Source: Lancefieldella rimae ATCC 49626 (GTDB lineage Bacteria > Actinomycetota > Coriobacteriia > Coriobacteriales > Atopobiaceae). From it: a stretch of 64,000 nt of DNA. The stretch lies in contig NZ_ACFE01000001.1 in NCBI RefSeq assembly GCF_000174015.1, positions 310,001-374,000 of the forward strand, given 5' to 3'. Both the position numbers and the translations under genes were made by a program. Position 1 is the first letter of the stretch, and every line of letters begins with the position of its first letter. Below are positions 49,141 through 51,754 of the stretch, piece by piece. The notes under the pieces were generated by a model. It made no database searches, had not been told where the DNA came from, and saw only the letters and a program-made list of their open reading frames with translations.

Positions 49141-49352
49141 CTTCAGGGCTCCTTCCCACCTGATGTGTTCATGAAGTCATCAGCACTACGGGCACGCGTC
49201 AAACGTTGTATTTATCAGTATAAACACAGAACGCTCAAATCACATTCTCAGAATCTTCTCTACGAGCCGTACGTTCCCGCTCAGGCAATAAAAACAGAAA
49301 ATTTGTTCTATTTTTCTCGTGTCTCTCACAAAAAAGCGCTACACTATATATA

Positions 49353-49364
49353 GAACTTATGTTC
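49353..49364 (+). promoter_or_regulatory. LexA-type SOS box
   Basis: GAACTTATGTTC fits the Gram-positive/actinobacterial LexA consensus GAAC-N4-GTTC, with an extra matching G after it (GTTCG). It directly follows TATATAT (a possible -10 box) and lies 23 bp before the start of the radical SAM gene, where a bound repressor would block transcription. Confidence 0.65.
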
Positions 49365-49386
49365 GTTCTCGCGAGAAAGGCCGTCC

Positions 49387-50826
49387 GTGGATACCCTTGA
49401 CAAGCTTTCCATACTCGCAGATGCCGCGAAATACGATGCTGCCTGTACCTCCTCCGGCGTAAACCGAAATGCGCAAAAAGGAAGCTTGGGCATGGCATCC
49501 GCTGCCGGCTGCTGTCATTCCTTTGCACCGGATGGGCGCTGTATCACCTTACTCAAAGTGCTTCTCTCCAATGCGTGCGTCTATGATTGTGCCTATTGTG
49601 TAAACAGGTGTTCCGCCTCGTGCCGGCGGGCAACTTTCACGCCGCAAGAACTTGCCGATCTCACCGTGGACTTTTATAAACGTAACTTTATCGAAGGACT
49701 TTTTCTCTCATCCGGCGTTCTCGGCACACCGGACCATACCACCGAGCTGATGATTGAGTGTTTGCATATCTTACGCAATAAGCTTCGCTTTCGCGGATAT
49801 ATACACGCCAAAATTATCCCGGGAACATCTCCTGAGCTTATTGATACCATTGGACGCCTTGCCGATAGACTTTCCGTAAACCTTGAACTTCCCAGTTCTC
49901 AATCCCTCAAGCTTCTTTGTCCTAACAAAAATACCCAATCAGTCATGGAGCCTATGAAGCTCATTTACCAGAAACGGTGCGCTGAAGAGAATTTCCTTCT
50001 GGGCTTTTCACAAAAGCGCAAAAAATTAACGGGGCCACAAGGAAACCAACAGATCACCGCGCAAAACAGTAGCCCCGGCAGAACCCTTGCATATACGGCC
50101 AAAAATCGTGCCGCTTCAGAAGGACTCCGCCTCTCAGGCAATGGTGCCGCCTATACGCTCCGTCCTCACGCTTCTGTCTCTGCAAGCAAGAGGTCCTTCT
50201 CGCCTGCCGGTCAGTCAACACAGCTTATCATCGGCGCAACGCCGGAAAGTGACAACCAAATTCTCCGCCTTTCTCAGGCACTGTATGCTCACTACGATAT
50301 GAAACGTATTTTTTTCTCGGCATACATACCCATGATTGAAGATGTGCATTTACCGGAAACAAATACGCCCGTACCCTTAAGACGTGAACACAGACTCTAT
50401 CAAGCTGACTGGCTGATGCGCTATTACGCATTTACCCCCGATGAACTTGTTTCTCCTGAAGCCCCTTGGCTCGATCTTGAGGTTGACCCTAAGCTTGCAT
50501 GGGCGCTCGCCCACATCCACAAATTTCCCGTTGAGATTATGGATGCCCCGCTTGAACTTCTTCTTCGCATTCCGGGAATAGGACCGGTAGGTGCGAGAAG
50601 AATCATTGCGGCCCGGAGAAATCGCTGTCTTACCTTTGATGACCTCAAGCAAATGAACGTTACCCTCAAACGAGCCAGACACTTTATTTGCTGTCGGGGA
50701 AAACGAGATCCCCATTCTCCCCTTGACGCTGAGCTTATAAGAAAATTGGTGATCGATGATGCAAAAAAGAGCTCTTATAACAAAACGCGGAGAGCCATCG
50801 AGTGCGCACAACCAAGACTCTTTTGA
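49387..50826 (+). CDS. Putative DNA modification/repair radical SAM protein
   Basis: The GTG start has AAAGG seven bases upstream. The 479-residue protein carries the radical SAM cluster motif CVYDCAYC (Cys64, Cys68, Cys71) followed by a second Cys group (NRCSASC), then FFLSSGVL-like and HAKIIPGTSPELID segments typical of the barrel. Near the C-terminus is a helix-hairpin-helix DNA-binding motif (LLLRIPGIGPVGARRIIAARR). This combination matches the family described as the radical SAM protein linked to uracil-DNA glycosylase (TIGR03916). A stretch of about 50 residues near 215-265 looks like a lineage-specific insertion. Its start is under a LexA-type box, and the next gene is its usual partner. 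The reaction is unknown. Confidence 0.85.
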   Translation: MDTLDKLSILADAAKYDAACTSSGVNRNAQKGSLGMASAAGCCHSFAPDGRCITLLKVLLSNACVYDCAYCVNRCSASCRRATFTPQELADLTVDFYKRNFIEGLFLSSGVLGTPDHTTELMIECLHILRNKLRFRGYIHAKIIPGTSPELIDTIGRLADRLSVNLELPSSQSLKLLCPNKNTQSVMEPMKLIYQKRCAEENFLLGFSQKRKKLTGPQGNQQITAQNSSPGRTLAYTAKNRAASEGLRLSGNGAAYTLRPHASVSASKRSFSPAGQSTQLIIGATPESDNQILRLSQALYAHYDMKRIFFSAYIPMIEDVHLPETNTPVPLRREHRLYQADWLMRYYAFTPDELVSPEAPWLDLEVDPKLAWALAHIHKFPVEIMDAPLELLLRIPGIGPVGARRIIAARRNRCLTFDDLKQMNVTLKRARHFICCRGKRDPHSPLDAELIRKLVIDDAKKSSYNKTRRAIECAQPRLF

Positions 50827-51754
50827 ACCATCTCAGATCCCCACCATCGAGCAACTCAAAGAGCTTTGCAGCTCTTCTTCCCACGGTGTGGCTCTCGTTT
50901 GTAACCCAAGTTTAGAAGGTGTCGTTGCGGCCGTTGGCCTCGTATACCTTGCGCATATATCAACTTCCGAGTTTCGCCTTGTAAGAAGCGATGCGTACCA
51001 AGGACGCCTGGGAGAAACTTGCATACCCAGCCTTGATCCTGCCAAAGAAAGTACCGTCGCTCTTGCGCAAAGAGTTCTCACGGGTTTTGAAAGGCAGCAA
51101 GGAAGAGAAGCAATACGGCGCATTGTTCTGGCATGCGCCTCAGATGAGCCCGATATGCCTGACATTGTATATCGCTTTATGAAGGATGGTTTTTCTCGAA
51201 AAGATCGACTGATAGAACACTTTGTCGATGACACTGCCCATGCCCTCAATGCGCTTGCGCGCCAAGTTGCCACTGAGTGCGAGCATATGCGGCAATTCGT
51301 ACGGTTTTCTCGCATGTCAGATAATTCCTTCATGGCTGTCTTCAAGCCTCATGCAAACGTCTTGCCATTGGCTTCCAACTACTTTGTCCGGCGCTTGGGA
51401 AATGAGCGGTTTTTCATTGTGGATCCCATACATGGTATTGTTGCCTTCCATGCTCCGGAGATGAGAAACTTTGGCATCATGAAGCCCGACAAGAGCAATC
51501 TTGATATCCTCATTTCCCGCAAGGATCTTGCCGCCGATGAACCCTATGTCAGAGCGTTGTGGAAAGAGTTTTATAAAGGAGTTGAGTTGCCAGGCAGAGA
51601 TGCCTCGCAGCGCGGATATGATCTGCGTGCGCATTGGATGCCCAAGCGATTTTGGGAAGGCCTCACTGAGCTTTCCTGCCAAGATTTTCCACGTAATGCC
51701 AAGGTTCCCCTGCGCTATCAGGGTACGTCCAAGAAAGGCTTGCTTGATACCTAA
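50756..51754 (+). CDS. DUF4130-type probable DNA metabolism protein
   Basis: The 332-residue product shows the partner-family features: a start segment ALVCNPSLEGVVAAVGLVY, the ATECEHMRQFVRFSRMSDNSFMAVFKPHANVLPLASNYFVRRL core, FFIVDPIHGIVAFHAPE, and LWKEFYKGVELPGRDASQRG with HWMPKRFWEGLTEL. This fits TIGR03915/DUF4130, found beside the TIGR03916 radical SAM protein. In many genomes a uracil-DNA-glycosylase domain is fused to this protein, but here it ends without one. It overlaps the radical SAM gene by 71 bp, so the exact start (ATG 50756 or 50759) is uncertain and translation is probably coupled. Confidence 0.85.
   Translation: MMQKRALITKRGEPSSAHNQDSFEPSQIPTIEQLKELCSSSSHGVALVCNPSLEGVVAAVGLVYLAHISTSEFRLVRSDAYQGRLGETCIPSLDPAKESTVALAQRVLTGFERQQGREAIRRIVLACASDEPDMPDIVYRFMKDGFSRKDRLIEHFVDDTAHALNALARQVATECEHMRQFVRFSRMSDNSFMAVFKPHANVLPLASNYFVRRLGNERFFIVDPIHGIVAFHAPEMRNFGIMKPDKSNLDILISRKDLAADEPYVRALWKEFYKGVELPGRDASQRGYDLRAHWMPKRFWEGLTELSCQDFPRNAKVPLRYQGTSKKGLLDT

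Follow-up and report, generated by a model that had tools for sequence, protein, structure and literature searches.

Among the described systems, the closest to the locus studied here is an SOS-regulated COG1573–COG4277 operon of Bacteroidetes, which the available part of PMC8565304 describes as a putative base excision repair system that includes a uracil-DNA glycosylase (UDG); the same text refers to SOS-controlled glycosylase systems of this kind in Verrucomicrobia and Alphaproteobacteria. Our subject is a window, a stretch of 64,000 nucleotides from Lancefieldella rimae ATCC 49626 (contig NZ_ACFE01000001.1, positions 310,001 to 374,000), in which genes for a radical S-adenosylmethionine (SAM) protein and a DUF4130 protein follow two LexA-type boxes. 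The radical SAM protein belongs to TIGR03916, the type to which we take COG4277 to belong, and the likeness to the Bacteroidetes operon is that of two genes under LexA or LexA-like control. The locus differs in having a DUF4130 protein without a glycosylase domain, GAAC-N4-GTTC sites, two putative operators and a distribution in Coriobacteriia and Clostridia. A second related form is found in Proteobacteria (Azospirillum, Phaeobacter, Agrobacterium, Caballeronia and Ketogulonicigenium), where the same two families adjoin behind the clade's own LexA motif. The proteobacterial DUF4130, however, bears a C-terminal UdgX domain, which the window protein lacks.

The available part of PMC3765255 connects DUF4130, in SOS contexts, with uracil DNA glycosylases and with radical SAM proteins resembling SplB, and a 'Radical SAM protein', vnz_31145, is listed in the Streptomyces LexA regulon (PMC9380542). 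Because SOS control is published for glycosylase systems (available parts of PMC8565304 and PMC3765255), such control is not in itself new. The glycosylase-free, two-operator form in Coriobacteriia and Clostridia is a variant; the predicted fold of DUF4130 and the co-variation of one cysteine, Cys43, are new leads. In the open-access literature we found no paper that names TIGR03915 or TIGR03916 (subscription papers lay mostly outside the search), none that joins UdgX with radical SAM, and none that joins LexA with Coriobacteri and an SOS box; COG4277 is named in one paper. To our knowledge, no reaction has been assigned to the TIGR03916/TIGR03915 system.

A gene pair behind two LexA-type boxes

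A preliminary description of this DNA, made from its letters alone, had proposed a two-gene unit consisting of a radical SAM gene with a CxxxCxxC motif and a helix-hairpin-helix (HhH) and a DUF4130 gene overlapping it by 71 bp, with a LexA-type box overlapping the start region. Reading of the open reading frames and family scans found the unit as described. The radical SAM gene (49387..50826; this and the other features of the locus given with coordinates lie on the + strand) codes for 479 residues that score 585.5 bits against TIGR03916 (curated cut-off 343.5) and 32.5 bits against PF04055. The DUF4130 gene (50756..51754) starts 71 bp inside it, and its product reaches 149.2 bits against TIGR03915 (curated cut-off 112.25) and 120 bits against PF13566; together with the adjoining radical SAM gene, this places the pair in the two families to which it had been assigned. 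The position of the box needed correction: the perfect GAAC-N4-GTTC box GAACTTATGTTC (49353..49364), the proximal of two, ends 22 bp before the GTG start at 49387. The distal box GAAAATTTGTTC (49297..49308) has one mismatch and lies 56 bp upstream of the proximal box.

The proximal box is the sole GAAC-N4-GTTC site in the window. A shuffled window averages 0.98 such sites, so that by itself the box carries little weight. Across the 1.63 Mb of the genome (9 contigs) there are 10 GAAC-N4-GTTC sites, whereas the reversed pattern occurs 82 times. Of the 10 GAAC-N4-GTTC sites, three are immediately upstream of recA, ruvC and the radical SAM gene, where the gene names beside boxes are our reading of the translations, made without a family scan; a further site is part of an inverted repeat that resembles a terminator and adjoins parB, another is near feoB and four are within coding regions. 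The genome encodes one canonical LexA above the cut-off (218.5 bits versus 110.95), and the lexA promoter carries three boxes with one mismatch and one with two.

Two of these genomic sites have features of their own. The genome's only other exact copy of the window box, GAACATAAGTTC (L002 1501-1512, G000:C8:80589-80600, + strand), stands just upstream of an open reading frame of 125 residues without an NCBIfam match, adjoined, in our own reading, by an integrase and a seryl-tRNA synthetase; this frame is possibly an SOS-controlled gene of a mobile element. The perfect box beside the parB-like gene (L003, G000:C8:113339-113350) lies centrally in an inverted repeat of 32 bases, with 14-base arms and TTTT between them, a pattern that looks like a terminator and hence like a false positive for box scans.

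The box is conserved and follows the clade

We examined the upstream regions of homologous radical SAM genes. Across 27 loci from the same order (L014–L040, L014 being the window's own), a perfect box was found in 22 and a box with at most one mismatch in 26, and a second box lay 27–58 bp from the first in the same 26. A set of 80 loci, taken from named genomes that by their titles are almost all Coriobacteriia and Clostridia, was scanned over 215 bp upstream; 40 had a perfect box and 74 one with at most one mismatch, and single-letter shuffles gave 0.3% and 5.8%. We then pooled 101 distinct upstream regions from these two classes, excluding 6 duplicates of 107 and L041–L043, in which the match begins inside the protein. 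Perfect boxes were present in 56, boxes with at most one mismatch in 94 and two boxes in 74, compared with 0–2, 3–17 and 0–4 for 11 permuted palindromes of the same letters; these counts are not independent trials, because the sequences are related and were picked as best matches. Only a half-site gap of 4 was enriched in the 101 regions (56, versus 0–2 for every other gap between 0 and 10), and the remainder of the loci contained 12 sites in 1.16 Mb. The preliminary description had let its reading stand or fall with conservation of the box in close relatives, and the box is conserved there. LexA sites of Clostridioides difficile used in a surface plasmon resonance analysis share the form GAAC-N4-GTT[C/T], according to the part of PMC4234289 that was available.

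Outside these classes the site changes with the clade. Ten regions were fetched from 158 plasmid records with a match. All six alphaproteobacterial loci among them have GAAC-N7-GAAC just upstream of the gene; 47.6 kb elsewhere contained one such site, and all other gaps from 0 to 12 gave zero. The alphaproteobacterial LexA motif is given as GTTC-N7-GTTC in the accessible text of PMC8565304. The clostridial locus L164 has GAAC-N4-GTTC. The single betaproteobacterial locus fetched shows CTGT-N8-ACAG, which we take to be the betaproteobacterial LexA motif. A promoter site that tracks the specificity of LexA from clade to clade in this way is hard to account for without LexA control. The window box is very probably a LexA operator.

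The same data bear on whether the box might be a chance match or the site of another regulator. Chance would supply about one perfect site per window, as stated above, and yet the conservation, together with the shuffle and permuted-palindrome controls, led us to reject a chance box; with the spacing specificity and the motif switching added, either origin is very improbable. Some loci weigh against LexA control. No box was found in 7 of the 101 upstream regions, the two phylum genomes outside the order that have both genes (G239 and G287) lack such a box within 200 bp, and neither the Bacteroidota locus L165 nor the Gemmatimonadota locus L168 shows any of the motifs tried. On balance, conserved boxes, the motif switch between clades and a canonical LexA with boxes at its own promoter support, at the level of sequence, the SOS control that had been proposed.

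The glycosylase looks like an add-on

The preliminary description took the lack of a fused glycosylase to suggest that the glycosylase is separate or not needed, and recommended looking for a UDG-family gene elsewhere in the genome. Such a gene is present: a family-4 UDG that scores 192.7 bits against TIGR00758 (cut-off 125.3); the genome also has a deoxyinosine glycosylase. The best UdgX match in the genome, at 123.7–123.9 bits, is under the TIGR03914 (UdgX) cut-off of 189.95, and the window's DUF4130 protein has no TIGR03914 match. The translation of the family-4 UDG shows no KRRIH, and its 3.4-kb locus contains no perfect box. In the five proteobacterial fusions that the UdgX scan took in, a TIGR03914 domain above the cut-off lies C-terminal to DUF4130 in 5/5 proteins, and KRRIH-like loops occur in six translations (L160, L161, L162, L166, L167 and L169). 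The DUF4130 frames of Coriobacteriia and Clostridia mostly span 250–400 residues, too short for a UdgX fusion; a few stop-to-stop frames are longer.

The fusions raise the possibility that the pair acts downstream of a UDG, resolving or using abasic sites that come from UdgX or, here, from the family-4 UDG. UdgX bonds covalently to abasic DNA (PMC10359453, in the part seen), as such a role would suit. Against this, the genome's UDG falls short of the UdgX cut-off, and neither a KRRIH nor a perfect box was seen with it. Of 140 family genomes, 137 have relatives of the UDG, none above the UdgX cut-off, while the radical SAM gene is patchy, matched in 60 of 100 relatives (in one of these, G027, as a 37-residue fragment with a stop). 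We consider a role downstream of a UDG unlikely. With UDG relatives nearly everywhere, all below the UdgX cut-off, and the radical SAM gene unevenly distributed, the glycosylase appears to be an add-on to the system rather than its core. Of the two options offered earlier, 'not needed' fits better than 'separate', the UDG being an ordinary family-4 enzyme.

DUF4130 is predicted to share the DHH fold

The model of the window's DUF4130 protein is of good quality (predicted local distance difference test (pLDDT) 83.8, predicted template modelling score 0.78), and residues 43-261 are modelled as DHH/RecJ-like. A Foldseek search of the PDB ranked DHH proteins and RecJ at the top, its first 12 rows having E values of 6e-4 to 1e-2, and VIA-align gave Z 9.0 for the PAP phosphatase 8a8k (root-mean-square deviation (rmsd) 5.5 over 202 residues) and Z 8.5 for RecJ (rmsd 6.4 over 219 residues). 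Going by their descriptions, we take 49 of the 50 VIA-align rows, among them Cdc45, to be members of the DHH superfamily, with only 2qx2 outside it. DHH/RecJ proteins again ranked first in a library of viral structures. DUF4130 is thus predicted to share the overall fold of the superfamily (RecJ, NrnA-type proteins, PAP phosphatase and Cdc45), although it lacks the DHH and GGGH motifs and has no detectable sequence similarity to it.

Several results weigh against this prediction. Best Z values of 7–8 are usual without a clear relationship, and 9.0 is only slightly higher. A Pfam scan of 38 members found DUF4130 in all and a DHH model in none, profile searches of the PDB with DUF4130 returned nothing relevant, and hhalign gave probabilities of 0.1–0.3% for a DHH relationship. 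The accessible text of PMC3765255, the sole paper we found that names DUF4130, does not mention a DHH-type fold.

Catalytic DHH or GGGH strings were found in 0 of the 38 members. In the stretch where DHH motif I would be expected, about a third of the members have a YDGSFEG-like sequence and the usual aspartate set is missing, in a comparison with RecJ motif I. Seven residues (E174, R183, F184, R213, D223, W269 and R281) are invariant across the 38 diverse members, as might be expected if DUF4130 were an active enzyme, either a nuclease or a phosphoesterase, whose active site is of a new kind; with the catalytic strings absent and motif I without its aspartates, we regard this as distinctly unlikely. 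Because the catalytic motifs appear to have been lost from a DHH/RecJ-like fold, DUF4130 most likely holds rather than cuts DNA. As modelled, it is probably a DHH-derived, non-catalytic DNA-handling partner.

A cysteine site that co-varies with DUF4130

In the radical SAM protein, the three cysteines of the CxxxCxxC motif (C64, C68 and C71; residues 64-71, 49576..49599), the radical SAM cluster site, and the hairpin residues P396, G397 and G399 are kept in 90/90 aligned homologues. The HhH region with its PGIG hairpin (residues 366-421, 50482..50649) scores 20.8 bits against PF14520 and 17.3 bits against PF12836, both under the curated cut-off of 27; as a profile it matches a chain of the ComEA type (E 5.4e-6) and gives a weak match to RuvA (E 0.03). 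SplB, the spore photoproduct lyase, is likewise a radical SAM enzyme tied to SOS and DNA repair (available parts of PMC3765255 and PMC8565304). The window protein differs from it in having an HhH domain and an extra N-terminal cysteine site. No spore photoproduct lyase model was among its NCBIfam or Pfam matches up to E 0.01, in a profile library that presumably contains that model.

The extra site is formed by Cys20, Cys43, His44 and Cys52 (codons within 49444..49542), a candidate auxiliary metal site recognized from the homologue alignment. Each of the three cysteines is present in 89/90 aligned homologues, and His44 in 88/90. The homologue that departs in its cysteines is L168, which has no DUF4130 in its 8-kb locus. 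We also read by eye L174–L177, homologues without DUF4130 from other lineages of the phylum: Cys43 is missing from all four, while L174–L176 retain Cys20 and Cys52 and L175 retains a His. In L164, L170 and L171, further homologues with DUF4130, Cys43 is kept. Cys43 is thus present in 92/92 homologues (DUF4130 was seen beside 90; the contigs of L056 and L103 end too early for it to be seen) and absent from 5/5 homologues without DUF4130 in the locus, which amount to about three independent losses, since L174–L176 are one family. L174, L175, L176 and L177 have no GAAC-N4-GTTC box, with up to one mismatch, within 200 bp.

The model of the radical SAM protein comes nearest in fold to lipoyl synthase (Z 16.8, rmsd 3.5 over 228 residues), with HydE and HydG next. 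In lipoyl synthase an auxiliary cluster plays a sacrificial role, and the near-invariant Cys20, Cys43 and Cys52 could supply such a cluster if the pair modified intact DNA, for example by adding sulfur or a methyl group. A related proposal, that the pair assists mutagenic replication, would accord with the description of DUF4130 as 'a predicted mutagenesis-related enzyme' in the part seen of PMC3765255. Several other radical SAM barrels, however, score within about 1 Z of lipoyl synthase, SOS control points to conditions of damage, and the cysteine region (residues 18-53) has a pLDDT below 50 in the model, which also weighs against reading a defined site from it. Modification of intact DNA or assistance to mutagenesis is, in our judgement, rather unlikely.

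Distribution and layout of the locus

DUF4130 stands beside the radical SAM gene in 78 of the 80 named-genome loci; the contigs of the remaining two stop within the radical SAM frame or shortly past it. Among 119 genomes of the phylum, all 8 with TIGR03915 are among the 12 with TIGR03916; Caulobacter vibrioides, a control in these scans, has both families. A strict pairing has a point against it in the remaining 4 of the 12, which have a TIGR03916 match (one below the cut-off) and no DUF4130, so the radical SAM protein can exist alone. Rough clustering of frames within 4.5 kb of the 80 loci found no third conserved neighbour: the pair's own clusters cover 71 and 63 loci, and the next largest cover 8, one consisting largely of antisense frames that cover the pair, the other in mixed positions. 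With the longest frame taken automatically, the two genes overlap by 65-74 bp in 21 of a set of 30 loci from the same order that includes the window's own, and the remaining 9 have other overlap values or open frames; the annotation of Lachnospira eligens leaves 41 bp between the two genes. In the window, the flanking genes by Pfam are a divergent CCA-adding-type nucleotidyltransferase and a convergent DivIVA, so the pair stands alone.

Reading of the sequence suggests further signals around the proximal box. A -10-like stretch, TACACTATATAT (49340..49351), lies directly 5' of it, with TACACTATAT as the -10-like sequence just preceding the box; a consensus promoter scan listed no promoter there, and a TA-rich stretch precedes the box in several relatives as well. 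A Shine-Dalgarno-like AGAAAGG (49374..49380) stands before the GTG at 49387.

We also tried two wider associations. A link to SRAP (PF02586) was rejected, as it occurs in 21 of 60 genomes with a radical SAM match and 17 of 40 without (Fisher p 0.53), and so was a role in defence, since no PADLOC model matched at E 0.01. A phage collection yielded 10 matches, of which 8 are faecal records without annotation; two 240-kb records (H46 and H47) named Acinetobacter phage MD-2021a carry a gene annotated as a putative DNA modification/repair radical SAM protein. NZ_CP077849.1 (H8), a 3.66 Mb Acinetobacter record filed as a plasmid, is by its size probably a chromosome.

Discussion

We propose that the pair is a LexA-repressed, damage-inducible operon in which a radical SAM enzyme repairs lesions with a non-catalytic, DHH-like DUF4130 partner and without a need for UdgX, an explanation we hold to be somewhat better than an even chance. 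It builds on computed features (the families, boxes, conservation, motif switch, missing UdgX and Cys43 co-variation) and on a predicted fold; from these we infer LexA binding, induction, a complex, a lesion and a reaction. In the undamaged cell, LexA would occupy the two promoter boxes, and its RecA-stimulated cleavage would free the promoter. The radical SAM protein would bind DNA through its HhH domain, and its radical chemistry might undo a lesion in a base or a sugar, or convert it. DUF4130 would be its regular partner, most likely holding single-stranded or damaged DNA for the enzyme. The C20, C43, H44 and C52 site would probably be an auxiliary metal centre or a docking site, with C43 as the part that tracks the partner. 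In Proteobacteria, DUF4130 would also bring UdgX as a covalent trap for abasic sites, a module that is absent here and apparently not needed.

A bolder version, which we put forward tentatively, would make DUF4130 a Cdc45-like 'pseudo-RecJ' that has lost catalysis, a subunit for loading single-stranded DNA that docks on a partner-specific Cys/His metal site (C20-C43-H44-C52) of the radical SAM repair enzyme, with UdgX as an add-on fused to it in some phyla. If so, bacteria would own a widespread new kind of SOS-induced radical repair machine whose core is a glycosylase-free pair.

LexA-type control that follows the clade, in Coriobacteriia and Clostridia that, going by record titles, include many gut bacteria, places the system in the SOS response. 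Because its core occurs without a glycosylase, the candidate chemistry is narrowed, and the predicted fold of DUF4130 and the co-variation of Cys43 could lead to its mechanism.

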